Made by a program: the position numbers and the translations under genes. This document shows positions 4,525 through 42,546 of a DNA stretch of 64,000 nt, one piece after another. A model generated the notes under the pieces. That model saw nothing but the letters and a program-made list of their open reading frames with translations, did not search any database and was not told where the DNA came from. Source of the stretch: Chloroflexota bacterium (GTDB taxonomy: Bacteria > Chloroflexota > Dehalococcoidia > JACVQG01 > JAHKAY01). The number at the start of each line of letters is the position of its first letter. Positions within the stretch are counted from its first letter, which is position 1. Location: NCBI GenBank assembly GCA_018825785.1, contig JAHKAY010000002.1, positions 1-64,000 of the forward strand, read 5' to 3'.

Positions 4525-5364
4525 CTAGCCCTGCTCCAGGAAACGAGATATCTCGCTGAAGGAGAAGACGGGGCCGTCCTGGCAGACGTACTTCTCACCG
4601 ATGTTGCACCGGGCGCACTTGCCCATGCCGCACTTCATCTTGGACTCCAGGGTGGTAACTATCTGCATGGGGGCGAAGTTCAGGGCCTTGAGCTCCGCCA
4701 GGACAAAGCGGATCATGATGGGGGGTCCGCAGGTGATAGTTATAGTGTTCTCGGGAGAGGGCTTTAGCTCCTTTATCACGGTGGGGACGAGGGCTACCCT
4801 CCCCTGCCAGCCCCCGTTCCCCCGGTCAACGGTGAGCTCCACCCTGGTGCGGGGGGCCTCCGCCCAGGAGGGGAACTCGTGGGCAAAGACCAGGTCGGCG
4901 GGGGTGCGGGCGCCGTAGATGACCAGTAGCTCCCCATACTCCTCCCGGTGGTTCAGGACGGCCTGGATGACGGGGCGGAGCGGGGCCAGGCCAATGCCGC
5001 CGCCGATGATGATGATGTTCTTCCCCCGGTACTCATCCATGGGGAAGGCATTGCCGAAGGGCCCTCTTATACCCACCGCCTCCTCCGGCTCCAGCTCATG
5101 AAGGGCCGAGCTCACCGTCCCCACCCGGCGGATGGCAAACTCCAGCACCCCATCGGGGGAGGGGTAGCTGGCGAAGGTGAAGGGGGACTCCCCCATACCA
5201 AAAGCCGATACAAAGGCGAACTGCCCCGGCCTGTGGCGGAAGTTCTCTCTTGCCCGCGGGTCCTCTATCTCCACCCGGAAGAGCTTCACATCGGGGGTGA
5301 GGTCCTGGACCGCCAGGATGCGGGCAGGGAGGGGGAGGAAGGGACTATCAGGTAGCACGGGCAA
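4525..5364 (-). CDS. flxA: FlxA-like FAD/NAD(P)H-binding subunit
   Basis: NAD(P)H dehydrogenase subunit of the ferredoxin-NADP reductase/PyrK superfamily, 279 residues. An FAD-binding barrel (about 8-105, with HRPGQFAFVS) is followed by a Rossmann NAD(P) domain (IIIIGGGIGLAPLRP near 115-130) and a C-terminal [2Fe-2S] motif with Cys245, Cys250, Cys253 and Cys261. This architecture is shared by FlxA, sulfhydrogenase gamma (HydG) and AsrB; the Hdr genes in the same operon favour FlxA. It should bring electrons in from NADH to the Flx-Hdr complex in the cytoplasm. It overlaps flxB by 17 bp. Confidence 0.85.
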   Translation of the reverse strand: MPVLPDSPFLPLPARILAVQDLTPDVKLFRVEIEDPRARENFRHRPGQFAFVSAFGMGESPFTFASYPSPDGVLEFAIRRVGTVSSALHELEPEEAVGIRGPFGNAFPMDEYRGKNIIIIGGGIGLAPLRPVIQAVLNHREEYGELLVIYGARTPADLVFAHEFPSWAEAPRTRVELTVDRGNGGWQGRVALVPTVIKELKPSPENTITITCGPPIMIRFVLAELKALNFAPMQIVTTLESKMKCGMGKCARCNIGEKYVCQDGPVFSFSEISRFLEQG

Positions 5365-6355
5365 CCTTGGCTTCTATTTTCTGCATATCAGAGACTATCT
5401 CCCGGATGTCTATGTTCACGGGACAGGCTCGCACGCAGCGGCCGCAGCCAGTGCACTTCACCTGGCCCTTGAACTGGGTGGGATAGTAGAGGAACTTGTG
5501 GTAGAAGCGCTGGCGGAGCCTGGCCCCCGTGGAGGGGCGGGGGTCATAGCCGCCTGCCAGGCGGGCAAAGCCGGAGGCCTGACAGCTTTCCCAGCTCCTT
5601 ACCCTCTCCACCATGCCCTTCAGCGGATAGTCCCGGATATCAAAACAGTAGCAGCAGGGGCAGACATAGGCACAGAGGTTGCAGTGGATGCACCTATCTG
5701 CCAGGCGCTCCCAGTAGCCATCGTTGAAGATTCTCTTGGCCACATCAGTGATGCCGGCAACGGGGACGGGGGTGGTGGCTGGGGGTGGGGGGTTGTCTAT
5801 CTCCAGCTCCTCCATATTGAAGCCGGTGAAGAGGGCGGCCCCCCGGGCGGTCCGCACCTGGAGGATGTAGCCCTGAGGGGTGGGGATGAGCAGGACATCC
5901 AGGTGGGAGACATCCTGTGGTCCGGAGCCCGCGCTCTCGCAGAAGCACTCCGGCCGGGCCCGGGCGCAGGCCAGGCCCACCAGAATGGTCGCATCCCGCC
6001 GCCTCTGATAATGGGGGTCGCCGGGCTGGGAGAGGAAAGCGGCATCCATGAGGGATATGCCGTGGGCATCGCAGGGGTGCAGGCCAAAGAGGACCTGTTT
6101 TTTGACCTCAGGCAGGGGCCGGGCCTCCCAGCGCCCGTTCTTGCGCTCAAAGATGAAGAGGGTCTCCGAGGGCGGGAAAATGACATCCTTGGGGGAAAGG
6201 GTGGAGACATCATAGCTCAATACTATTTCCTCCACCCTCTTCACCGGCTGGAAGAGGACGGTGTCCCAGGCCTGGACGGGGGCGATAACGGTGTACTCCT
6301 GGATGAGCCTCTTCAGCCAGAGGAGGAGGTTGTCCCGGGAGAGGAAGGGCTTCAT
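5348..6355 (-). CDS. flxB: FlxB-like iron-sulfur subunit (HydB/AsrA family)
   Basis: Iron-sulfur protein of 335 residues in the sulfhydrogenase-beta/AsrA/FlxB family. The N-terminal two thirds match the family in general layout, with a conserved LFGLHPCDAHGISLMD stretch near 105-120 and extra cysteines near 150-160. The C-terminal part holds two ferredoxin-type [4Fe-4S] motifs: HCNLCAYVCPCCY near 230 and CTGCGRCVRACPV near 305. It would pass electrons between the FlxA flavin and the rest of the complex. It overlaps flxC by 4 bp and flxA by 17 bp, implying translational coupling. Confidence 0.82.
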   Translation of the reverse strand: MKPFLSRDNLLLWLKRLIQEYTVIAPVQAWDTVLFQPVKRVEEIVLSYDVSTLSPKDVIFPPSETLFIFERKNGRWEARPLPEVKKQVLFGLHPCDAHGISLMDAAFLSQPGDPHYQRRRDATILVGLACARARPECFCESAGSGPQDVSHLDVLLIPTPQGYILQVRTARGAALFTGFNMEELEIDNPPPPATTPVPVAGITDVAKRIFNDGYWERLADRCIHCNLCAYVCPCCYCFDIRDYPLKGMVERVRSWESCQASGFARLAGGYDPRPSTGARLRQRFYHKFLYYPTQFKGQVKCTGCGRCVRACPVNIDIREIVSDMQKIEAKVARAT

Positions 6356-7197
6356 ATCCCCAGGTCCTCATCGGGCTTGAAGGTGGCGAGGGGGGGAGGG
6401 GTCTCGGGGGAGAGGCCCGGCTGGAAGCTGAACTTGCTCTCCACCTCCCTCAGGAGGTGGCGGTTGAGGAGCATCATGGGTATTTTCACCGGGCATACCC
6501 GCTGGCACTCCCCGCACTCAATACACCGGCCCATGAGGTGGAAGGCGCGGACGGTGTTCCACTGGTGGTTCTCCTGGGGGGCTATCCTTATCCCCACCCA
6601 TTGGGGGTCCAGCTGGTCAACAAAGCACTGCTGGCAGTAGCAACCGGGGCACGCCTGCCGGCAGGCGTAGCAGCGGATACAGCGGTTGAAGTGCTCCTGC
6701 CAGAAGGCCTCCCTCTCCTGGTGAGTCCTGGCATCTATCTCTGCCAGGTCCTCATAGCTTCGGACGGCCTCCTCAGCCACCGGTTCCCCCACAAGGAAGT
6801 CGTAGACGACGGGGTTGTGCTGGGGGCAGAGCAGGCACTTGGCCTGGAGCTTCTCCCCCATATAGCCAAAGGAGACCTCCCGCATCCCGGCGCAGGTCAC
6901 CCCTATGATATAGACCCTCTCCCGCTTTATCTGCTTCTCCAGGAGGAGCAGGTTGATGGCCCTGGTATCACAGGGCTTGGCCACAATGGCCGTGTTCTTG
7001 TTCCTCTTGTCCACCAGGAACTTAGCCAGGCTGTTGACGCAGGTCTGGTCGTAAATTAACCTGTCGGCCTCCTCCGGGGTATAGGCGAAGAAGGGGCGGG
7101 AGGTGAGGCCATCACTGGCCCTCTCCCAGCCGATGACGCACTCCAGCTGCCGGGTGCTGAGGAGTTCTCGGGCCTTCTGCCGGACTAGCTCTTCCAT
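6352..7197 (-). CDS. flxC: FlxC-like iron-sulfur subunit (FrhB-like N-terminus)
   Basis: Iron-sulfur protein of 281 residues. The N-terminal region (about 30-125), including VAKPCDTRAINLLL and IIGVTCAGM, resembles the FrhB/FdhB-type flavin/iron-sulfur proteins. The C-terminal half has two [4Fe-4S] motifs: CIRCYACRQACPGCYCQQC near 175-195 and CIECGECQRVCPVKIP near 228-243. By position between Hdr/FlxD genes and FlxB it is assigned as FlxC. Its start abuts the stop of mscS, with no gap, so translation of the two is probably linked. The subunit naming is by context and architecture. Confidence 0.75.
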   Translation of the reverse strand: MEELVRQKARELLSTRQLECVIGWERASDGLTSRPFFAYTPEEADRLIYDQTCVNSLAKFLVDKRNKNTAIVAKPCDTRAINLLLLEKQIKRERVYIIGVTCAGMREVSFGYMGEKLQAKCLLCPQHNPVVYDFLVGEPVAEEAVRSYEDLAEIDARTHQEREAFWQEHFNRCIRCYACRQACPGCYCQQCFVDQLDPQWVGIRIAPQENHQWNTVRAFHLMGRCIECGECQRVCPVKIPMMLLNRHLLREVESKFSFQPGLSPETPPPLATFKPDEDLGI

Positions 7198-7917
7198 CTA
7201 CGCCAGCTGGATATCGGGGCTATTGCCCGCCTCTTTCAGGAAGTGGAGATATATCCTGGTCCTGAGCTCGTTTCTGGTCCTGACCGGGGTGACAAACTTC
7301 CCCTTTATCCAGATGCGCTGGGGCTCAATATGCACCAGCACCCTGGGGCCGTTCATCGCCTCCTTCATAAAGTCCGGATAGCCATTGCGGAAGGCCAGCC
7401 GGGCCTGGGCCAGGATTTCCCCGTCCTCGGCCTTCAAAATCTCCTCCAGGAGGGCGGAGGCCTTCTCCACATCGCTCTTGGTGGTGAGGGGGATGCGTAT
7501 CTCGTCAAAGATATAGTCGGAGTGGATCTGGCCGTGGCGGGCGGAATAGTCCTTAGAGTAGTTAAGCACCGGCTGGTCCAGGACCAGGAGGTTGGGGATA
7601 TGGAGGAGCCGGCCGGTGAGCTCCCCGCCCATCTTCTCATCCTCCCCCACCTCCTCCAGGGTGAAGTGGAAGAGGCCCGCATTCTTCACATCCCCCTTGA
7701 TATTGCCCATCCGTATCCGGTCCCCGACCTCAAAGAGGCGGGAGACACGGATGAGGAAGAAGCCGAAGAAGCTGGCAATATACTTCTGGAGGGCCAGGGC
7801 CATGCTCACCGCCACCACCGTGACATAGATAGCGGTGTTGGGGGAGGAGAGGAGCCACGCCACTAGGACACCCCCCAGGACAAGGAGGAGGATGGCGATG
7901 ATAGAGGTAGCTCTCAT
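7198..7917 (-). CDS. Small MscS-family mechanosensitive channel, embedded in flx-hdr operon
   Basis: Membrane protein of 239 residues. Two hydrophobic helices occupy about 4-22 and 27-43, with a Gly/Ala-rich stretch running into ASFFGFFLIRVSRLFEVGDRIRMG, the signature junction of the MscS pore helix and beta domain (quoted parts: ASFFGFFLIRVSRLF, EVGDRIRMG). A soluble C-terminal domain follows. The ATG at 7915-7917 overlaps the flxD stop (ATGA) and the stop abuts the flxC start, so it is tightly coupled within the redox operon. A longer frame up to 8229 is not coding. The reason for a channel gene here is unknown. Confidence 0.85.
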   Translation of the reverse strand: MRATSIIAILLLVLGGVLVAWLLSSPNTAIYVTVVAVSMALALQKYIASFFGFFLIRVSRLFEVGDRIRMGNIKGDVKNAGLFHFTLEEVGEDEKMGGELTGRLLHIPNLLVLDQPVLNYSKDYSARHGQIHSDYIFDEIRIPLTTKSDVEKASALLEEILKAEDGEILAQARLAFRNGYPDFMKEAMNGPRVLVHIEPQRIWIKGKFVTPVRTRNELRTRIYLHFLKEAGNSPDIQLA

Positions 7918-8330
7918 CCCGCCCCCCTCAGTTGGAGGAGCTGGTCCCGAAAATCGGCCACCACCTGGGCGAAGCGCTGGCCCTCGGTGGCGGAGACCCA
8001 CTCCAGCCTGAGCCTTTCCTTCTCTATCCCCAGGAAGTCCAGCAGGGAGCGGAGGACGGCGAAGCGGCGCCGTGTGAAGTAGTTCCCCTGGACATAGTGG
8101 CAGTCCCCCGGGTGGCAGCCGGAGATGAGCACCCCGTCCGCCCCCATGGCAAAGGCCTTGGCCACCAGGATGGGGTCCACCCGGCCCGAGCAGGGGACCC
8201 GGATGATGCGGATGCTGGCGGGGTAGCATATCCGGCTGGTGCCCGCCATGTCCGCCCCGGCATAGCTACACCAGTTGCAAAGAAAGCCCACGATGCGGGG
8301 CTCCTGGCTAAGGGGAGATTTCTGGCTCAT
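7914..8330 (-). CDS. flxD: FlxD/MvhD-family electron-transfer subunit
   Basis: Small iron-sulfur protein of 138 residues, matching the MvhD (methyl-viologen-reducing hydrogenase delta) family that docks input modules onto HdrA. The conserved cysteines are in NWCSYAGADMAG (about 19-30), RICYP, RVPCSGRV and GADGVLISGCHPGDCHY (about 75-92, quoted within 20 residues). The start is the ATG at 8328-8330, overlapping the hdrA stop (ATGA). Upstream in-frame sequence lies over hdrA and is not coding. It should pass electrons from FlxABC into HdrA. Confidence 0.92.
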   Translation of the reverse strand: MSQKSPLSQEPRIVGFLCNWCSYAGADMAGTSRICYPASIRIIRVPCSGRVDPILVAKAFAMGADGVLISGCHPGDCHYVQGNYFTRRRFAVLRSLLDFLGIEKERLRLEWVSATEGQRFAQVVADFRDQLLQLRGAG

Positions 8331-10324
8331 GAGAGTAGAGCGATGACCTCCGAGAGGAGCTGCTGATGGGTGGCCCCCCTGAGATTCACCGCCGTGGGGC
8401 GGCAGGCGGCCACGCAGAGGCCACACCCCTTGCACAGCCCCTCGTTTACCTGGGCGATAAGCTTCCCATCCCGGGTCTCCTGGGGCGTGATGGCGGAGAA
8501 GGGGCAGACCTGCTGGCAGAGCATACAGCCGATGCACCTGGCGGCGTCCACCACCGCTGTCGTGGGCTCGGTGACAAGGGTATCCCGGCTGAGGAGGCCG
8601 ATGGCCTTGGCCGCCGCCGCGGAGCCCATGGCCACCGCATCGGGGATATCCACAGGGGCCACGCAGGCCCCGGCCAGGAAGACGCCATCGGTATGGGTCT
8701 CCACCGGGCGCAGCTTGGGGTGGGCCATGACATAGAAGCGGTCCCGGTCGTAGCTGATGCCCAGCATCTGGGCCGTCTCCATGGCGCCAGTGGCGGGCTC
8801 TACGGCGGTGGCCAGCACCACCAGGTCAGCCTCTATCTCCACCGGCCGGCCCATGAGGGAGTCCTCCCCCTGGACCACCAGCTTCTTCCCCCGGGGATAG
8901 ACCTTGGCTATCCTCCCCCGGAGGTATGTGGCCCCCGCCTGCTCCTGGGCGCGGCGGGAGAACTCCTCGTAGCCCTTGCCCGTGGCCCGGATATCTATGT
9001 AGAAGATGTAGTTCTGGACATCGTGGTCATGCTCGTGGAGCATGATGGCGTGCTTGGCCATGTACATACAGCATATCTTGGAGCAGTAGGCCTTGCCCCT
9101 CAACTCGTCCCGGGAGCCCACACAGCTTATATGGACGACCGTCTTGGGGTGGGTGCCGTCGGAGGGGCGGAGGAGCTGGCCCCCGGTGGGACCGCTGGCG
9201 TTCATCATCCTCTCCAGCTGGAGCCCGGTGATAACATCGGGATAGACCCCCCAGCCATACTCCCCATAGACGGTGGCGTCAAAGGTCTTGTACCCCGTGG
9301 CGGCCACGATAGCGCCGAACTTCTCCGTGATGACCTGGTCCTCCTGGGCCCAGTCTATGGCCTGTGGCGGACAGAGCTTCTCACAGATGCGGCACTGGGG
9401 GGGCTTCTTGCCCTGGGGGTCCTTCTCCCACTCCAGGTACTTGATGTAGCGGCAGTTGACCTGGTCAATGACAGGCTTGCTGGGCACCGCCTGGGGGAAG
9501 GGGATATAGATGGCGGAACGCTTCCCCAGGCCCATATCAAACTCTGCGGTCACCTTCTCCGGGCACTTCTGCCAACAGATGGCGCAGCTTGTGCACTTGT
9601 TGAAGTCCACCTTGGCGGCCCTTCTCCTTATCTGGACCTCAAAGTTGCCCACAAACCCTTTCACCTTCTCCACCTGGGAGTAGGTCATGAGCCGGACCTT
9701 GGGGTTCTGGGACACCTCCACCATCTTGGGGGTGAGGATACAGGCGGAGCAGTCCAGGGTGGGGAAGGTCTTGTCCAGCTGGGCCATCCTGCCGCCGATG
9801 GTTGGCTCCCTCTCCACCAGCACCACCTCGTGGCCTGCGCCGGCGATATCCAGGGCCGCCTGGATGCCGGCTATCCCCCCGCCGATGACCAGAGCCCTCT
9901 TGGTCATGCCCACTGGCTTGGGGAAGAGGGCCTCGTTCCTTGCCGCCTTGGCAACAGCCATGGCCACCAGCTCAATGGCCTTCTCGGTGGATACCGGCCG
10001 GTCCCCACCATGGACCCAGGCGCAGTGCTCCCGGATGTTGGCTATCTCCAGGAGATAGGGGTTGAGGCCCGCCTCCACCATGGCCCGGCGGAAGGTGAGC
10101 TCATGCATCCGGGGGGAGCAGGCCCCGATGACCACCCGGTTGAGGCGGTGCTTCTTGATGGCCTCCCTTACCGAGGCCTGGCCTGGCTCGCTACAGGTAT
10201 ACTGGTTGTCGTCCACATGGACCACCCCCGGCATCACCCTGGCCGCCTCCATTACCCGGGGGATGTCCACCGGCTCAGCGATGTTCCGCCCGCAGTGGCA
10301 GATAAAGACTCCTATCCTGGCCAT
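8327..10324 (-). CDS. hdrA: Heterodisulfide reductase subunit A-like flavoprotein
   Basis: HdrA-family flavin/iron-sulfur protein of 665 residues, the usual place of flavin-based electron bifurcation. Visible elements are an N-terminal Cys region (CHCGRNI, residues 10-16), an FAD-binding motif GGGIAGIQAALDIAG near 148, the HdrA signature DCSACILTPKM near 190, ferredoxin motifs CTSCAICWQKCPE near 245 and CRICEKLCPPQAI near 315, a YCSKICCMYMAKHA cluster region near 420, and two C-terminal [4Fe-4S] motifs CIGCMLCQQVCPF near 602 and CKGCGLCVAACRP near 635. Length fits the family. It overlaps hdrB by 13 bp and flxD by 4 bp. Confidence 0.95.
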   Translation of the reverse strand: MARIGVFICHCGRNIAEPVDIPRVMEAARVMPGVVHVDDNQYTCSEPGQASVREAIKKHRLNRVVIGACSPRMHELTFRRAMVEAGLNPYLLEIANIREHCAWVHGGDRPVSTEKAIELVAMAVAKAARNEALFPKPVGMTKRALVIGGGIAGIQAALDIAGAGHEVVLVEREPTIGGRMAQLDKTFPTLDCSACILTPKMVEVSQNPKVRLMTYSQVEKVKGFVGNFEVQIRRRAAKVDFNKCTSCAICWQKCPEKVTAEFDMGLGKRSAIYIPFPQAVPSKPVIDQVNCRYIKYLEWEKDPQGKKPPQCRICEKLCPPQAIDWAQEDQVITEKFGAIVAATGYKTFDATVYGEYGWGVYPDVITGLQLERMMNASGPTGGQLLRPSDGTHPKTVVHISCVGSRDELRGKAYCSKICCMYMAKHAIMLHEHDHDVQNYIFYIDIRATGKGYEEFSRRAQEQAGATYLRGRIAKVYPRGKKLVVQGEDSLMGRPVEIEADLVVLATAVEPATGAMETAQMLGISYDRDRFYVMAHPKLRPVETHTDGVFLAGACVAPVDIPDAVAMGSAAAAKAIGLLSRDTLVTEPTTAVVDAARCIGCMLCQQVCPFSAITPQETRDGKLIAQVNEGLCKGCGLCVAACRPTAVNLRGATHQQLLSEVIALLS

Positions 10325-11154
10325 ATTCCTTTCCCTTTCAGCACCGGCAGGGGGCTGATGAAGTGCCTTTTCAGCATGAGGTCGCTGGGGGGAAGGCCAA
10401 GGGCCAGGCCCACCGCCTGGGTGAGGTAGAGGACGGGGAGGGGATGTTCAGTCCCCCTCTGGGCCAGGTCCAGGTTGAAATGGCACATGGGACAGCCCAC
10501 CACCAGGGCCTCGGCCCCTGCCTCCTGGGCCTGGAACACGATACGGCGGGAGAGCCGGAGGAGCAGGTCCTTCTTGGCCAGGAACATGGAGGCCCCACAG
10601 CATTCGTTCTTGAAGGGCCAGGGGACGGGCTGGGCCCCCAGCCGGGCCATAATGCGGTCCATCCCCTGGGGGTTCTCCAGGTCCTCCCCAGGGACCACCC
10701 CCTGGGGGCGGGCCAGGAGACAGCCATAGTAGCAGGCCACCTTCAACCCCCCCAGCGGCCTCTTCACCGGTATCTCCTCTTCCCTCAGCGCCTCCATGGG
10801 ATGGAGGACGGCAGGCATCTTCCCCAGGGGCTTGCCCAGGGCTTTTCCCACCTCCTCCTTTTTGCCCGGCCTTTCCAGCTCAAGGAGAGTGAGCTTGAGG
10901 CGGGAGTAGCACATGGCGCAGGGGACCAGCACGGGCCTCTCCATCTCCGAGGCCGCCTGAAGCTCATGGGCGGGGAGGACGAGGGCCAGGAGGTGGTCGG
11001 TGGAGTGGGCGGAGGATGCCCCACAGCAGACCCAGCCCTCTATCTCCTTCACATCCATCCCCAGCGCGGAGAAGACCGCCCTGGTGGAGACATCGTATTC
11101 GCGGGCGGTGGCGTGGAGGGAGCAGCCGGGGTAATAGGCGAAGGCCTTAGCCAC
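10312..11154 (-). CDS. hdrB: Heterodisulfide reductase subunit B-like
   Basis: HdrB-family protein of about 280 residues, expected to carry noncubane iron-sulfur clusters that reduce a disulfide-type substrate. Two CCG domains are visible: YYPGCSLHA (about 8-16), WVCCGASSA (about 42) and PCAMCYSRL; then YYGCLLARP, NECCGASMF (about 195) and GCPMCHFNLD (about 235). The GTG at 11152-11154 gives a start typical of the family and overlaps hdrC by 8 bp; an ATG at 11175 would add seven residues. In methanogens the substrate is CoM-S-S-CoB and in sulfate reducers probably DsrC; the natural partner here is unknown. Confidence 0.92.
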   Translation of the reverse strand: MAKAFAYYPGCSLHATAREYDVSTRAVFSALGMDVKEIEGWVCCGASSAHSTDHLLALVLPAHELQAASEMERPVLVPCAMCYSRLKLTLLELERPGKKEEVGKALGKPLGKMPAVLHPMEALREEEIPVKRPLGGLKVACYYGCLLARPQGVVPGEDLENPQGMDRIMARLGAQPVPWPFKNECCGASMFLAKKDLLLRLSRRIVFQAQEAGAEALVVGCPMCHFNLDLAQRGTEHPLPVLYLTQAVGLALGLPPSDLMLKRHFISPLPVLKGKGIWPG

Positions 11155-11692
11155 CGGCCTTCCTCGCCTTCTCAAAGAGGGGACCGCTCCCCGCCGCCCT
11201 CTCCGGGATGAAAGGCACCTTCCCCCGGCGGAGCATAGCGCCGAACTCCCTCAGGTTGGTCCAGGGCCTGAGGGTCAGGAGGCCGTAGGCCCCGCCCAGG
11301 CCCAGCTCATAGGCCCTGCCCAGGGCCTCTATCTCGGCCAGGAAAAGGCGGTGGAAGAGGGCAATCTCCCTGTCCGCCGGCCTTACCCCTTCTTTGATTG
11401 CCCGGTGTCTAAGGGTCTCAATAACCCGGGCCACGTCTATCTTCATCGGGCAGCGGGAGGAGCAGGTCATGCAGAAGAGGCAGAGCCAGAGGGTGTTGCT
11501 CCCCAGGGCCTCTTCCCTCAGGCCGAGCTGCACCGCCCTCATGAGGCGGCGGGGCCCCAGGTCCATAATAGCAAACACAGGGCAACTACCGCTGCACTTG
11601 CCACACTGGATACATGAAGAAACCCTCTCACCGCTTTCGGTCTCCAACTCCCGCCGGAAATCGGGAGAGGGGATAATGACCAGGCTCTTCAT
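11147..11692 (-). CDS. hdrC: Heterodisulfide reductase subunit C-like
   Basis: HdrC-family iron-sulfur protein of 181 residues and first gene of the leftward operon. Two [4Fe-4S] motifs, CIQCGKCSGSCPV near 27-39 and CLFCMTCSSRCPMKIDV near 70-86, would wire HdrA to HdrB. The start chosen is the ATG at 11690-11692 (MKSLVIIPS); an ATG 42 nt further up would fall close to or over the promoter boxes. Upstream at 11706-11734 is a good sigma-70-like promoter on this strand. Confidence 0.9.
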   Translation of the reverse strand: MKSLVIIPSPDFRRELETESGERVSSCIQCGKCSGSCPVFAIMDLGPRRLMRAVQLGLREEALGSNTLWLCLFCMTCSSRCPMKIDVARVIETLRHRAIKEGVRPADREIALFHRLFLAEIEALGRAYELGLGGAYGLLTLRPWTNLREFGAMLRRGKVPFIPERAAGSGPLFEKARKAGG

Positions 11693-11705
11693 ATTAACCT
11701 TTGAT

Positions 11706-11734
11706 ATTCTATCATGCCCTGCCCCGATTTTCAA
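11706..11734 (-). promoter_or_regulatory. Promoter of the hdrCBA-flx operon
   Basis: On the minus strand a TTGAAA (11729-11734) and TAGAAT (11706-11711) are separated by exactly 17 bp, each one mismatch from the sigma-70 consensus. The -10 box ends 14 nt before the hdrC start codon. It lies back to back with the extended -10 of the rightward nitrogen regulator gene, so the two promoters share one 75-bp gap. Confidence 0.65.
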
Positions 11735-11737
11735 ACC

Positions 11738-11746
11738 TGATATAAT
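11738..11746 (+). promoter_or_regulatory. Extended -10 promoter of the GlnR-like gene
   Basis: TGATATAAT at 11738-11746 is a perfect extended -10 (TGnTATAAT). There is no convincing -35, which extended -10 promoters can do without. It lies 21 nt upstream of the TTG start of the regulator and only 3 nt from the -35 box of the divergent hdr promoter, so RNA polymerase occupancy at one should hinder the other. Confidence 0.5.
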
Positions 11747-11767
11747 GGCGGTGAATTGGAGGCCAGC

Positions 11768-12415
11768 TTGGCCCGGTTACTGGTCCTGGCGGAAGCCAAA
11801 GAGGCGGAGAGGATGGGGGCCCTCCTTACCCCCCAGGGGCACCTGTTGACCTTCGCCTCTTCTCCTGCTGAGGCGGCGGAGAAGGCAAAACAGCGGCCCC
11901 CCGACCTCCTTATTGTGGACCTGGGCCAGGTAGGGCCGGGGTGGCTGGAGAAGGTAAGGCAGGGGCGGAAATTCCCCGTTTTGGCCCTGGTGGCCCGGGA
12001 GAAGCTTGGGGCCTTCCCTCCAGGGGTGGACGAGTTCGTGCTATCACCCTGGGCCGAGGGGGAGCTGTTGCTCCGCCTGGAACGCCAGCTGGGCCCTGCC
12101 CCCAGCCCCGATGTCATCCGTTTCGGGGACCTGAGTATGGACCTGGCCCGCTATGAGGTAACCCTGGCGGGAAAGCGTGTGGAGCTTACCTTCAAGGAAT
12201 ACCAGCTTCTGAAGTTCCTGGCCAGCCACCCCGGGAGGGTCTTCACCCGGGAGGCTCTCCTCACCCAGCTCTGGGACTATGACTACTTCGGCGGGGAGAG
12301 GACGGTGGATGTCCACATCCGCCGCCTGAGGAGCAAGATAGAAGACCAGGCCCACACCTTTATCGAGACGGTAAGAGGGGTGGGCTACCGCTTCCAGCCG
12401 GGAAGACAACTGTAA
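11768..12415 (+). CDS. GlnR-like OmpR-family regulator with atypical receiver
   Basis: Regulator of 215 residues: a degenerate receiver (1-110) and a PhoB/OmpR-type winged helix (about 120-212, with LTFKEYQLLKFLA and TVRGVGYRFQP). The N-terminal acidic pair is missing (LVLAEAKE), one Asp remains in LIVDLG, the switch Thr is absent and the conserved Lys is Ser (VLSPW), so normal phosphorylation is unlikely. Actinobacterial GlnR has the same traits and controls amt-gln genes; this gene sits directly ahead of such an operon and of repeats in GlnR-site arrangement. TTG at 11768 is preferred because GGAGG lies 5 nt upstream; a TTG at 11756 is possible. Calling it GlnR is inference. Confidence 0.8.
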   Translation: MARLLVLAEAKEAERMGALLTPQGHLLTFASSPAEAAEKAKQRPPDLLIVDLGQVGPGWLEKVRQGRKFPVLALVAREKLGAFPPGVDEFVLSPWAEGELLLRLERQLGPAPSPDVIRFGDLSMDLARYEVTLAGKRVELTFKEYQLLKFLASHPGRVFTREALLTQLWDYDYFGGERTVDVHIRRLRSKIEDQAHTFIETVRGVGYRFQPGRQL

Positions 12416-12422
12416 CTCAAGA

Positions 12423-12465
12423 TTAACCCACCCTTAACACAACGGTAACATTCCCCCTGTATTCT
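12423..12465 (+). promoter_or_regulatory. amt promoter with three 11-bp-period GlnR-type repeats
   Basis: TTAAC (12423-12427), TTAAC (12434-12438) and GTAAC (12445-12449) are each separated by 6 nt, giving an exact 11-bp period. A -10-like TATTCT lies at 12460-12465, 10 nt beyond the last repeat, and the amt start is at 12497. The spacing equals that of known GlnR sites (xTnAC-n6-xnAAC) and also of PhoB/PhoP-type direct repeats. No consensus -35 exists, as expected for an activated promoter. Confidence 0.65.
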
Positions 12466-12496: not shown

Positions 12497-13726
12497 ATGC
12501 CAGAGGTGAATTCGGGGGATACTGCCTGGGTCCTGGCCTCGGCGGCCCTGGTGCTCCTGATGACCCCGGGGCTGGCCCTCTTCTATGGGGGGATGGTGAG
12601 GAAGAAGAATGTGGTGGGCACCCTCATGCAGAGCTTCATCGTCATTGCCCTTATCAGCGTCCAGTGGGTGCTCTGGGGCTACAGCCTGGCCTTTGGCCCG
12701 GGGAGGGCTGGTCTTATCGGGGGGCTGTCGTGGGTGGGGCTCGGGGGGGTGGGGTTGGAGCCCAATCCCGCTTATGCCCCCACCATCCCTCACCAGGCCT
12801 TCATGGTCTTCCAGGCCATGTTCGCTGTCATCACCCCCGCCCTGATTACCGGGGCCTTTGCCGAGAGGATGAAGTTCAAGAGCTTCCTGGTCTTCATCCT
12901 CCTCTGGGCCACCCTGGTCTATGACCCCGTAGCCTTCTGGGTATGGAACCCGGAGGGCTGGCTGCGCAAGCTGGGGGCCCTGGACTTCGCCGGGGGGACG
13001 GTGGTCCATATCAGCTCCGGGGTCTCCGCCCTGGCAGCAGCGGTGGTGCTGGGGAGGAGGTTGGGCTATGGCCGGGAGCCTATGGAAGCACACAATATCA
13101 GCATGTCAGTGCTGGGGGCCGGCCGTCTCTGGCTTGGCTGGTTTGGCTTCAACGCCGGCAGCGCCCTGGGGGCAGGGGCACTGGCCACCAGCGCCTTTGT
13201 GGTCACCAATACCGCCGCCGCCGCCGCCACCCTGGCCTGGCTCTTCACCAGCTGGGCCATGACGGGCAAGGCCAGCCTCCTGGGGGCGGCATCGGGGGCG
13301 GTGGTGGGGCTGGTGGCTATCACCCCGGCCTCGGGCTATGTGGGCCCCCTGGCGGCCATCGCTATCGGCGCGGGGGCGGGGGTCCTGTGCTACCTGGCGG
13401 TCCGCTTGAGGAACCGGCGCAATGTGGATGATTCTCTGGATGTCTGGGCCTGCCACGGCATCGGCGGCACCTGGGGGGCCCTGGCCACCGGGCTCTTTGC
13501 CACCACCGCCATCAACTCAGCGGGGGCCAACGGCCTCTTCTATGGCAACCCCGGGCAGCTAGGTATCCAGGCCCTGGCGGTGGCCATCGTCTGGGCCTAC
13601 GCCTTCGTCATGACCTGGGTCATCCTCAAGGTCCTGGACACCATCATGGGGGTGAGGGTGAGCCCGGTGGAGGAGCTGATAGGGCTGGACCTCTCACAGC
13701 ACAGTGAGGCAGGCTACCGGCTGTAG
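12497..13726 (+). CDS. amt: Ammonium transporter (Amt/AmtB family)
   Basis: Membrane ammonium channel of 409 residues with about eleven helices. Recognisable segments are GLALFYGGMVRKKN near residue 27, the AmtB-typical MFAVITPALITGAFAERM near 115, FAGGTVVHISSGVSALAAA near 165 (contains the pore His in VVHISSG), WFGFNAGSA near 215, and CHGIGGTWGALATG near 320 with the second pore His. The ATG at 12497 has GGAGG 5 nt upstream; a TTG at 12485 is less likely. P-II follows 7 bp downstream, the usual partner that plugs the channel. Confidence 0.95.
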   Translation: MPEVNSGDTAWVLASAALVLLMTPGLALFYGGMVRKKNVVGTLMQSFIVIALISVQWVLWGYSLAFGPGRAGLIGGLSWVGLGGVGLEPNPAYAPTIPHQAFMVFQAMFAVITPALITGAFAERMKFKSFLVFILLWATLVYDPVAFWVWNPEGWLRKLGALDFAGGTVVHISSGVSALAAAVVLGRRLGYGREPMEAHNISMSVLGAGRLWLGWFGFNAGSALGAGALATSAFVVTNTAAAAATLAWLFTSWAMTGKASLLGAASGAVVGLVAITPASGYVGPLAAIAIGAGAGVLCYLAVRLRNRRNVDDSLDVWACHGIGGTWGALATGLFATTAINSAGANGLFYGNPGQLGIQALAVAIVWAYAFVMTWVILKVLDTIMGVRVSPVEELIGLDLSQHSEAGYRL

Positions 13727-13733
13727 GAGAGAG

Positions 13734-14072
13734 ATGAAAAAGATAGAGGCCATCATCCGCAGCGAGAAGTTCGGCGAGGTGAAAAGCGCCCTGGAGAGGG
13801 CGGGGGTTATTGGCATGAACATGGTGGAGGTGCAGGGGCGGGGGAGGCAGAAGGGCCTCGTCCGCATGTGGCGGGGCGTCGCCCAGGGGGTGGACCTGCT
13901 CCCAAAGATGAAAGTGGAGTTGGTGGTGAATGATGAGGAGGTGGAGAAGGTGGTCCAGGCCATCCTCAAGGCCGCCTGGACAGGGAACATTGGCGACGGG
14001 AAAATCTTCGTCCTCCCGGTGGAAGAGGTTATCCGGGTGAGGACGGGTGAAAGGGGGAAAGATGCCATTTGA
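13734..14072 (+). CDS. glnK: Nitrogen regulatory P-II protein with altered T-loop
   Basis: P-II trimer protein of 112 residues (normal length), next to amt and therefore GlnK-like by context. Conserved parts are MKKIEAIIR at the start, GRGRQKG before the T-loop, LPKMKVELVV after it, and TGNIGDGKIFVLPVEEVIR at the ATP site. In the T-loop the Tyr that is uridylylated in enteric P-II (Tyr51) is Gln, and Tyr46 is Trp (RMWRGVAQGVDLLPK). Uridylylation at the usual site is therefore ruled out; control may rest on ATP/ADP and 2-oxoglutarate alone. SD GAGAG lies just before the ATG. It overlaps the next gene by 11 bp. Confidence 0.93.
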   Translation: MKKIEAIIRSEKFGEVKSALERAGVIGMNMVEVQGRGRQKGLVRMWRGVAQGVDLLPKMKVELVVNDEEVEKVVQAILKAAWTGNIGDGKIFVLPVEEVIRVRTGERGKDAI

Positions 14073-15018
14073 ACTCAGGCTGAGGAGAAACCTGGACTAT
14101 CACGAAGGTACCCCGGAACCCAAGTATTTCTTTGTCTTTGAGCTGGAACTGGGGGAGGTCATTGGCCGGCCCGTCTCCAGCCGCCTTCCGGTCTTCTGGC
14201 GGCCCAATGATACCCCCCATCCCCTTCTCAAGGAAATATACTGGGTGGATGTAGCCGGGGTGAGGGTGGAGAAAGGTAACCTGGCCGCCCTGGAAAAGGC
14301 TGTTCCCCAGGCGGTGCAGGGGCTTCTGGACTTCGGCACCATCCCCTACTATTATATCTCACTCCCCGGGGGGGAACGCCTGCCTGTTTTCCTCAAGGAG
14401 GGAAAGCTGCGCCTCCGCGAGCCCTCCCTTGAAGGGCAGGACATCGGCCAGCTCTGGCACCGCCTCGGAGACCGCCTCCTCCAGCAGAAAAAGGTCCGGG
14501 CCAAAGAGGAGGTGGAGGTGAGCCTCCTCCTGTGGAAGGAGCTGAAGGTCTTCACCACGGCCTTCGTCTTTGTTGATGGCGGGGCCTTTGTCCCCCTCTT
14601 CTGGCACGGCAAGGAGGAGCTGAACTATGACATCATCGGGCAGCCCCCACGCTTTCTCTCCCTGGAGAGGGCCTTTCAGCTACGCCGGGAGGTGGCGCAG
14701 GACCTGGTGGCAAAGCACCAGCTCTCTTCTATCTATGAGCTAAAGATGGAGCAGGTGCCGGACGAGGTGTGGGAGGTGCTCAGGAAGAAGGCCCGGCCCA
14801 CCGACCGGGTCCTGAGCTACGAGGACGAGGGGGGCCGGAAGGAGATACCCATCTATGAGGTAGAAGGGGAGGTCTTTGCTGCCCGCAGGATGAGCCGCCT
14901 GGGCGTCCTCTTCGCTCCTAATATAGATGAGCTGGCCCAGCGGGTCAGCGCCGACCTGGCCCGCCGGGGCAACATCCCCAGCGCCTCCCTCCTTAGCGTG
15001 GACAGGTCTAAGAAGTAA
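14062..15018 (+). CDS. Unknown protein inside the nitrogen operon
   Basis: Protein of 318 residues that I do not recognise. It has no signal peptide and no membrane helix; composition is mixed, with many charged residues and short Leu-rich stretches, consistent with a cytosolic globular protein. Two regions with beta-rich character (about 10-110 and 160-215, the latter with [20 protein letters not shown]) are followed by a helical region (about 215-318). It overlaps P-II by 11 bp and ends 11 bp before glnA, so it is certainly co-expressed with nitrogen genes. Its role may be in P-II or glutamine synthetase control, but nothing in the sequence proves that. Confidence 0.85.
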
Positions 15019-15029
15019 AGGAGAAAGAG

Positions 15030-16463
15030 ATGGTTCTGAAGACAATTAAGACGTCTGCTGAGGTCCTGGATCTCGTCCGGGAGAAGAAGCTGGAGATAGT
15101 GGACCTGAAGTTCACTGACCTCCCGGGTACCCTCCAGCACTTTTCCATCCCTGCGGGGGAGCTGGACGAGAGTATTTTCCGGGATGGTATCGGCTTTGAC
15201 GGCTCCAGCATCCGGGGTTTCCAGGCAATCCACGAGAGCGATATGCTGCTGGTGCCGGACCCCACCACCGCCCATGTGGATGCCATCTGCCGGGTGCCCA
15301 CCCTCTCCCTTGTCTGCGATGTCCGCGACCCCATTACGCGGGAGAAGTACTGGCGGGACCCCAGGTATATCGCCCAGAAGGCCGAGGCCCACCTCCTTTC
15401 CACCGGCCTGGCCGACACTGCCTATTTTGGCCCCGAGGCGGAGTTCTTCATCTTTGATAGTGTCCGCTTTGACCAGAACCAGCACTCGGGCTACTACTTC
15501 ATCGACTCCGAGGAGGGCATCTGGAACTCGGGCAAAGAAGACCGGGCCAACCTGGGCTACCGCCCCCGCTATAAGGAGGGCTACTTCCCCACCGCCCCGA
15601 CCGACAGCCTCCAGGACCTCCGCTCCGAAGCCGTGCTGAAGATGATTCAGGCGGGTATTGACATTGAGGTCCACCATCACGAGGTGGCTACGGCGGGGCA
15701 GGGGGAGATAGACATGCGCTTCCAGAGCCTCACCAGGATGGCGGACCAGGTCCTGCTCTACAAGTATATCCTGAAGAATGTGGCCCGGGCCCACAACAAG
15801 ACAGTGACCTTCATGCCCAAGCCCCTTTTCGGGGACAATGGCTCGGGGATGCACGTCCATATAAGCCTGTGGAAGGGTGGGACCAACCTCTTCTTCGACC
15901 CCGAAGGCTATGCCCAGCTCAGCATTACCGGCATGCACTTCATCGGGGGGCTTCTGGCCCACTCCCCTGCCCTCCTGGCCTTCTGTGCCCCCACCACCAA
16001 CTCCTACCGCCGGCTGGTGCCCGGCTATGAGGCCCCGGTGAACCTGGTCTACTCCCAGCGTAATCGCTCGGCGGCTGTGCGCATCCCGGTCTACTCCCTC
16101 AGCCCCCGGACCAAGAGGGTTGAATTCCGTCCCCCCGACCCCTCCTGCAACCCCTACCTGGCCTTCCCCGCCCTCCTCATGGCGGGGCTGGATGGCATAA
16201 AAAAGGAGATGGACCCGGGCTTCCCCATGGATGTGGATATCTACGAGCTGGAGCCGGAGAAGGCCAAGAAGATAAAGACCGTTCCCGGGAGCCTGGAGGA
16301 AACACTGGAGGCCCTCGAAAAGGACCACGAGTTTCTCCTCCAGGGCGGGGTCTTCACCACAGACCTGATAGAGACCTGGATAAAATACAAGAGAGAGAAG
16401 GAGCTGGACCCCGTCCGCCTCCGCCCCCATCCCTACGAGTTCTGCCTCTACTTTGACGTCTAG
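15030..16463 (+). CDS. glnA: Glutamine synthetase type I (beta-like, long form)
   Basis: Glutamate-ammonia ligase of 477 residues, the longer GSI-beta-like size. Motifs in order: [10 protein letters not shown] near 52 (catalytic Asp loop), [10 protein letters not shown] near 132, [14 protein letters not shown] near 212, [13 protein letters not shown] near 270, [18 protein letters not shown] near 322, and [18 protein letters not shown]-type substrate loop near 365 ([17 protein letters not shown]). The Tyr at the enteric adenylylation position is kept ([10 protein letters not shown] near 410), but no adenylyltransferase gene is in the window. It closes the amt-glnK operon and is followed by a strong terminator. 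Confidence 0.96.
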
Positions 16464-41202: not shown

Positions 41203-42546
41203 TTGACTGAAGCAAAGGACCGGGAACAGGCAAAAGAGTACGTGCTGCGCACCGCCAAGGAGCAGGGGGTAAGATTCATCCGCCTGTGGTTCACCGATAT
41301 CGTGGGTTCTCTCAAGAGCTTCTCCATCACTATTGAGGAGCTGGAAGGGGCCCTGGAGGAGGGGATGGGCTTTGACGGCTCCTCCATTGAAGGCTTCGCC
41401 CGGGTGGACGAGAGCGACATGATGGCCCTCCCTGACCCCGCCACCTTCCAGATTCTCCCCTGGCGGCCCCAGGAGAACGCAGTGGCCCGGATGTTCTGCG
41501 ATGTACACTGGCCGGGGGGCCAGCCCTTTGAAGGTGACCCCCGCCATGTGCTGAAGCGAAACCTGAAGCGGGCCGCGGACCTGGGTTTCACGTACTATGT
41601 CGGTCCAGAGCTGGAATACTTCTACTTCAAGGACAGCGAGGCAACCGTCCCCCTGGACCACGGGGGCTACTTTGACGCCACCCCCCCCGATTTCGCCTCG
41701 GACCTGCGCCGGGACACGGTGCTCATGTTGGAAGGGATGGGCATCGGCGTGGAGTACAGCCACCACGAGGTGGCCTTCAGCCAGCACGAGATAGACCTGC
41801 GCTACACAGATGCCCTCACCATGGCCGATAATGTCATGACATACCGCTTGGCCGTGAAGCAGGTGGCACAGCAGCATGGGGTCTATGCCACGTTCATGCC
41901 CAAGCCGGTCTTCGGCATCAACGGCTCGGGGATGCACGTGCACATGTCCCTCTTCAAGGGCAACCGCAACGCGTTCTTTGCCGCCAAGGGCGGCTACTAT
42001 CTCTCCAAGATGGCGCGGTCCTTTATAGCCGGACTGCTCAGACATGCCCCGGAGCTGACCGCAGTCACGTGTCAGTGGGTCAATTCATACAAGAGGCTGA
42101 CGCCGGGCTACGAGGCCCCCTGCTACATCACCTGGGCCCGTCGCAACCGCTCTGACCTCATCCGGGTGCCGGAATACAAACCCGGAAAAGAGAACAGCAC
42201 CCGCATTGAATACCGCGCCCCTGACCCGGCATGCAATCCCTATCTGGCCTTCAGCGTCATGCTGGCCGCCGGGCTGGACGGGGTGGAGAAGGGGTGGGAG
42301 CCCCCCGAACCGGTGGAGGAGAATGTCTACGAGATGACGGAGGAGGTGAGGCAGAAGCGGGGCATAGGGACCCTTCCCGGAAGCCTCTCGGAGGCAATCC
42401 TGCTCATGGAGAAGAGCCCACTGATGCGGGAGGCACTGGGCGACCATGTGTTCTTCACGTTCCTTCAGAACAAGAAGATTGAGTGGGACGGATACCGCAC
42501 CCAGGTGACCGACTACGAGCTCAAGCGGTATCTGCCCATCCTTTAG
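41203..42546 (+). CDS. glnA: Second glutamine synthetase (GSI-alpha-like, short form)
   Basis: Glutamine synthetase of 447 residues, shorter than the one at 15030 and resembling the GSI-alpha type. Motifs: GFDGSSIEGFARVDESDM near 57, GPELEYFYF near 132, HHEVAFSQHEID near 188, [14 protein letters not shown] near 243, WVNSYKRLTPGYEAP near 291, RIEYRAPDPACNPYLAF near 330. The TTG start has AAGGAGG 6 nt upstream. No GlnR-type repeats are visible ahead of it. The two paralogues likely differ in regulation, and the alpha type is often under feedback control without adenylylation. Confidence 0.95.
   Translation: MTEAKDREQAKEYVLRTAKEQGVRFIRLWFTDIVGSLKSFSITIEELEGALEEGMGFDGSSIEGFARVDESDMMALPDPATFQILPWRPQENAVARMFCDVHWPGGQPFEGDPRHVLKRNLKRAADLGFTYYVGPELEYFYFKDSEATVPLDHGGYFDATPPDFASDLRRDTVLMLEGMGIGVEYSHHEVAFSQHEIDLRYTDALTMADNVMTYRLAVKQVAQQHGVYATFMPKPVFGINGSGMHVHMSLFKGNRNAFFAAKGGYYLSKMARSFIAGLLRHAPELTAVTCQWVNSYKRLTPGYEAPCYITWARRNRSDLIRVPEYKPGKENSTRIEYRAPDPACNPYLAFSVMLAAGLDGVEKGWEPPEPVEENVYEMTEEVRQKRGIGTLPGSLSEAILLMEKSPLMREALGDHVFFTFLQNKKIEWDGYRTQVTDYELKRYLPIL

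Follow-up and report, generated by a model that had tools for sequence, protein, structure and literature searches.

A single OmpR-type regulator adjoins the ammonium transporter gene amt in a Dehalococcoidia genome of 1.59 Mb (60 contigs, 97% complete), and the question raised by this locus is which member of that large family the protein is and what it controls. We consider it highly likely that it is a response-regulator transcription factor of the GlnR type that works independently of a kinase and controls nitrogen assimilation in Dehalococcoidia. This reading was built from features taken directly from sequence: the clade of the protein, its lost phosphorylation set, a lattice of boxes, their fixed distance from the -10 element and the gene context. 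The window is the whole 64,000-nucleotide stretch of DNA analyzed, and within it the regulator gene is described by two features:

11768-12415, plus strand: predicted GlnR-type OmpR-family regulator with a degenerate receiver (Trans_reg_C match; PDB matches to GlnR 8hih/8hig; residues; tree)
11741-11746, plus strand: TATAAT, a possible -10 element of the regulator gene itself, without GlnR-type boxes (consensus only)

The regulator open reading frame (ORF) is listed as 11756-12415, and TTG 11768 is the likely start codon owing to a GGAGG at 11758-11762. No histidine kinase adjoins the gene, its neighbors being amt and, on the minus strand, a 4Fe-4S heterodisulfide-reductase-like set. That set (5348-11734) points away from the regulator and, judged by ORF translations alone, includes FAD/4Fe-4S proteins and CoB-CoM-type subunits.

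The preliminary description of this DNA had proposed a receiver without the usual phosphorylation set, and alignment to E. coli PhoB bore this out: at the positions of E9/D10/D53/T83/K105 the window protein has A/E/D/V/S, the acidic pair, the threonine and the lysine being lost and the aspartate alone kept. The same five positions are mostly T/N/D/V/D in actinomycete GlnR and always E/D/D/T/K in PhoB-like rows of the alignment, and the loss of the phosphorylation residues is common to the whole group, as it is in GlnR. The Pfam receiver model gave no match to the window regulator, and a receiver-like N-terminal domain is still built in its AlphaFold model. The closest PDB sequences were the GlnR proteins of M. 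tuberculosis (8hih) and A. mediterranei (8hig), followed by RegX3, MtrA, PhoP and PhoB, and the GGxRTVDVHxRRLR recognition-helix region is near-identical to that of actinomycete GlnR. Foldseek did not discriminate among OmpR-family members, because domain arrangement dominates its score; M. tuberculosis PhoP was its top match and many family members came ahead of GlnR 8hih (rank 19, 37% identity).

No NCBIfam match of the window regulator was above cut-off and all were far below, the three best being NblR (125.3 bits, cut-off 300), PhoB (122 bits, cut-off 296) and MtrA (120 bits). As NblR heads this list, the protein might be an atypical orphan regulator nearer cyanobacterial NblR than GlnR, its 11-bp repeats having arisen by convergence. 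NblR is likewise an atypical, kinase-independent regulator of the OmpR type. We regard this as improbable, given that the NblR score lies far under the cut-off and is nearly tied with those of PhoB and MtrA and that the gene context, which differs from that of NblR, and the boxes are those of GlnR (the trees below were built without NblR and other atypical regulators).

The GlnR-type assignment was examined in a maximum likelihood tree of 96 rows. A 100/99 branch, the bootstrap not being fully settled, parted the Dehalococcoidia regulators and actinobacterial GlnR from the canonical and PhoB rows, one side holding every Dehalococcoidia regulator together with 21 GlnRs from actinobacteria and 8 proteins from Acidimicrobiia, the other all 26 canonical or PhoB rows. 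A tree of the DNA-binding domain only gave the same split (94% SH-aLRT), and thus the separation from canonical regulators is not driven by the degenerate receivers. Placement of the window protein within the GlnR side is weak (82/82). The GlnR identity of the actinobacterial rows was checked (one row matches 8hih at 281.7 bits), and named Dehalococcoidia records nest among the class genomes, which identifies the class as Dehalococcoidia. The claim that the regulator is of the GlnR type was thereby upheld, and the firm grouping with PhoB that the preliminary description had set against its own claim was looked for and did not appear, the PhoB rows falling outside the GlnR clade.

The dimer of actinomycete GlnR is held by an Asp50-Arg52-Thr9 charge network (PMC10704036). 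This triad is complete in 21/21 actinomycete rows and 5/35 Chloroflexota rows of the alignment, and the window residues at the Thr9, Asp50 and Arg52 positions are A, D and G, the aspartate alone being kept. As the triad is mostly missing, the dimer would be held differently in most Chloroflexota members, and as it is absent from the window protein we file the latter as a GlnR-type sister variant rather than GlnR proper. We found no account of GlnR in Chloroflexota in the open-access literature. GlnR has so far counted as a regulator of actinomycetes, and the best reading of the Dehalococcoidia form is as a sister variant. In Acidimicrobiia-like Actinomycetota (L076, L099, L100, L113, L117, L122 and L125) a GlnR-like gene adjoins glnA, present there once or twice; a search of these loci for KTAAC/GAAAC pairs gave none, and the receiver aspartate is lost.

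Occurrence within the phylum was followed through best hits to the regulator among 161 sampled Chloroflexota genomes. In 16 genomes of the class the best hit scored 222-281 bits, and all 17 loci of the class that were read proved atypical. Best hits in other classes scored at most 191 bits, and the 14 read were all canonical, most of them having a PhoR-, PhoU- or PstS-like neighbor. On this sample the GlnR-type family looks to be limited, within Chloroflexota, to Dehalococcoidia. There the regulator often lies beside amt or glnA, and the same regulator together with repeated sites recurs across the class, very probably in Dehalococcoides as well.

The sites themselves lie at the end of the regulator gene and in the 81-bp gap that precedes amt:

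12412-12416, plus strand: half site 1, GTAAC, overlapping the regulator stop codon TAA at 12413-12415 (sequence pattern)
12423-12427, plus strand: half site 2, TTAAC (sequence pattern)
12434-12438, plus strand: half site 3, TTAAC (sequence pattern)
12445-12449, plus strand: half site 4, GTAAC, promoter-proximal (sequence pattern)
12460-12465, plus strand: -10-like hexamer TATTCT, exactly 10 nt past half site 4 (spacing common to 11/17 promoters)

These four TAAC copies stand in one exact 11-bp register and all four are a-type. Published GlnR sites read gTnAc-n6-GaAAc or GTnAC-n6-GTnAC in 11-nt repeats (PMC5826061, PMC10704036), the GAAAC-type copy being known in actinomycetes as the b site (PMC5826061). 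The preliminary description had reported three TNAAC-like repeats in the GlnR site arrangement; the three are real and in register, and a fourth, the first in order, had been missed at the stop codon. The arrangement holds for the 11-nt repeats and 6-nt spacers, a strict a-b-a-b order being confined to a few relatives. A genome scan for 11-bp-period repeats, also proposed there, returned the amt array and no other boxed promoter: the 0-mismatch triple is unique to the amt promoter across the 1.59-Mb genome, and a wider regulon in this genome was not found (4 other box pairs vs 6 in the control).

Regulators of relatives were fetched by protein similarity alone and hence carry no bias toward boxes. 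Twenty of these had amt or glnA downstream on the same strand, and in the intervening gaps we counted pairs of [GT]TAAC/GAAAC/[GT]TAAT. Pair distances were 11 bp (38 times), 22 bp (22 times), 33 bp (11 times) and 44 bp (3 times), any other distance up to 45 bp occurring at most once, and shuffles gave 0.15 pairs at 11 bp. At least one lattice pair was present in 17/20 loci, and the loss of the repeats in relatives, which the preliminary description had named as evidence against its reading, was therefore not what these unbiased loci revealed. In 11/17 promoters a -10-like hexamer followed the last copy at a distance of exactly 10 nt, any other offset being seen at most 3 times, and the 10-nt spacing recurs in loci found by pattern. 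The last copy in relatives is often GAAAC or GAAAT. Among 294 class genomes the strict a-b-a-b pattern plus -10 gave 7 matches in 6 genomes and 0 in the control.

A looser search for three KTAAC copies gave 95 matches in 55/294 class genomes vs 6 for the reversed control. Short AT-rich motifs are common in intergenic DNA, and the repeats might on that ground be attributed to chance and the regulator considered unrelated to amt. The likelihood of this is negligible in view of the class-wide excess over the control, the excess of 11-bp pairs over expectation and the failure of 100 dinucleotide shuffles of the window to produce even once four copies with at most 2 mismatches.

Sixty-two stretches around KTAAC triples were then read for gene context within 1.5 kb. 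Arrays containing GTAAC had amt/glnK/glnA nearby in 22 stretches and pst/pho genes in 0, whereas TTAAC-only arrays had pst/pho genes nearby in 13 and nitrogen genes in 0; the remaining 27 had neither gene set nearby. The separation of nitrogen from phosphate arrays is complete (Fisher p = 7e-10, an approximate value as related genomes are not independent), and the window array, G,T,T,G, belongs with the nitrogen arrays. The GTAAC/TTAAC contrast offers a simple rule to tell nitrogen from phosphate promoters in Dehalococcoidia.

These arrays also bear on whether the protein is a PhoB/PhoP-type phosphate regulator beside which the Pho-box-like TTAAC-N6 repeats at amt are fortuitous. In low-GC bacteria the Pho boxes, too, are direct repeats with an 11-bp period, of the TTAACA type, and PhoB/PhoP proteins resemble the window regulator in being winged-helix members of the OmpR family, in having tandem half sites of 11 bp and in an activator position upstream of the -10 element. 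In addition, TTAAC-only arrays do lie by pst/pho genes in Dehalococcoidia, and the PhoB model of NCBIfam does match, yet far below its cut-off. PhoB/PhoP systems differ in having a phosphorylatable receiver, a paired PhoR kinase and, in this same class, TTAAC-only arrays by pst genes. As both trees set the window regulator outside the canonical/PhoB clade, as the PhoB-like proteins read keep the acidic pair, D, T and K that the window regulator does not, and as phosphate and nitrogen arrays differ in sequence and context, we consider a phosphate regulator very improbable.

Given a GlnR-type protein, we infer its DNA binding, an activating rather than repressing action, its oligomeric state and a nitrogen signal along the following lines. 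An unphosphorylated dimer or higher oligomer would sit on one face of the DNA on head-to-tail 5-bp half sites, with one half site to each 11-bp turn of the helix; these read GTAAC/TTAAC, the final one being often GAAAC in relatives. With 10 nt separating the last half site from the -10 element that follows it, the bound protein would take the place of the -35 element and touch RNA polymerase, and transcription of amt-glnK-orf-glnA would be switched on when nitrogen is short. A kinase is unlikely to phosphorylate the protein, and the signal may therefore be relayed by PII, by glutamine synthetase or by a metabolite. Activation of this kind and receiver oligomers are known from actinobacterial GlnR-RNA polymerase complexes (summarized in PMC10704036). 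The regulator could instead be of the GlnR type and mainly repress amt, or exert local control without being the output of a nitrogen sensor. Repression by GlnR has a precedent in ald of Amycolatopsis (PMC4140684), and the window genome has its array at a single promoter. In 11/17 promoters, however, the array stops 10 nt short of the -10 element and does not lie over the start site, and since activators that stand in for a -35 element bind just there we judge such a role unlikely and favor GlnR-type activation.

The genes placed under this promoter are as follows:

12497-13726, plus strand: amt, ammonium transporter (TIGR00836, 462 bits; ORF listed from 12485, ATG 12497 following GGAGG)
13734-14072, plus strand: glnK, P-II family nitrogen regulator (PF00543)
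14062-15018, plus strand: 318-aa ORF that overlaps glnK and precedes glnA (no family match)
15030-16463, plus strand: glnA, type I glutamine synthetase (TIGR00653, 648 bits)

Neither Pfam nor NCBIfam matched the intervening ORF, and tblastn against the loci searched in relatives gave no hit to it; glnA starts 11 bp past it, and the gene order amt-glnK-orf-glnA looks like one operon and supports a nitrogen-responsive control of these genes. A second glutamine synthetase gene (41203-42546), followed by an NAD-synthetase-like ORF, has no GlnR-type boxes upstream. Of the complete local nitrogen switch originally proposed, the downstream amt, glnK and glnA genes and their interpretation are supported, and the second glutamine synthetase gene stands outside it as unboxed.

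Three complete genomes of one Dehalococcoides-like genus (1.36-1.52 Mb) carry the regulator gene followed by boxes, amt and glnK, and then boxes again ahead of the glutamine synthetase gene, and every such promoter has its -10 element at 10 nt. In one of them a second GlnR-type regulator heads a mod-nif cluster (L296:13642-14361). Its residues are fully degenerate (G/C/C/V/T), the tree places it with the GlnR side, on a long branch, and box arrays precede both its gene and nifB (L296:1885-1985). The nif operon and the ammonium transporter and PII genes are nitrogen-status markers in D. mccartyi 195 (review, PMC3462421), which fits a nitrogen role and does not thereby identify the regulator of these markers. 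We offer only tentatively, at somewhat less than even confidence, the joint reading that GlnR-type control predates Actinomycetota and has one origin with actinobacterial GlnR, Acidimicrobiia included, that it serves Dehalococcoidia as their general nitrogen regulator, with a nif-dedicated duplicate in a Dehalococcoides-like genome, and that it drives small RNAs in other genera.

In comparison with the GlnR of Streptomyces, Mycobacterium and Amycolatopsis, the window regulator shares the clade, the status of an OmpR-family orphan, the loss of the acidic pair, Thr and Lys, the 11-nt tandem half sites with 6-nt spacers and the presumed targets amt-glnK and glnA. It differs in its Chloroflexota host, in a regulator gene that adjoins its target operon, in copies that are mostly a-type GTAAC, with GAAAC/GAAAT promoter-proximal in relatives, in the triad that is not kept and in the single boxed promoter of its genome. 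Bacillota GlnR/TnrA, of the MerR family, have the name and nitrogen role alone in common with it, the protein family being unrelated. If the reading holds class-wide, Dehalococcoidia, which include organohalide-respiring bioremediation bacteria for which nitrogen supply matters, gain a named nitrogen regulator with predicted sites. As the Asp-centered network is mostly missing, the Dehalococcoidia regulator could also serve as an outgroup for asking which parts of GlnR are essential.

Boxes were also seen before other genes and in non-coding DNA. In genome G044 (L202:3044-5033) a boxed glnK-like gene is followed by a gene of the nitrite/sulfite reductase family, which suggests that the regulon can reach beyond amt and glnA. 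Rfam searches at the boxed non-coding loci gave nothing but one unrelated tRNA. One such element occurs in five genomes of one Dehalococcoidia genus, g135 (L206, L207, L209; L288-L292; box at L207:2991-3017), where a GTAAC/TTAAC/GTAAC array and a correctly phased -10 element are followed by some 130 conserved nt ending in a terminator-like GGCGGGGAGACCCGCC and a T-rich stretch. No conserved ORF was seen in this boxed region and no Rfam match was obtained, and the element is a candidate nitrogen-controlled small RNA. A different boxed non-coding candidate RNA is present in three genomes of another genus, g125 (L223, L224 and L225; box at L225, minus strand, 3007) and is conserved up to a GC hairpin.
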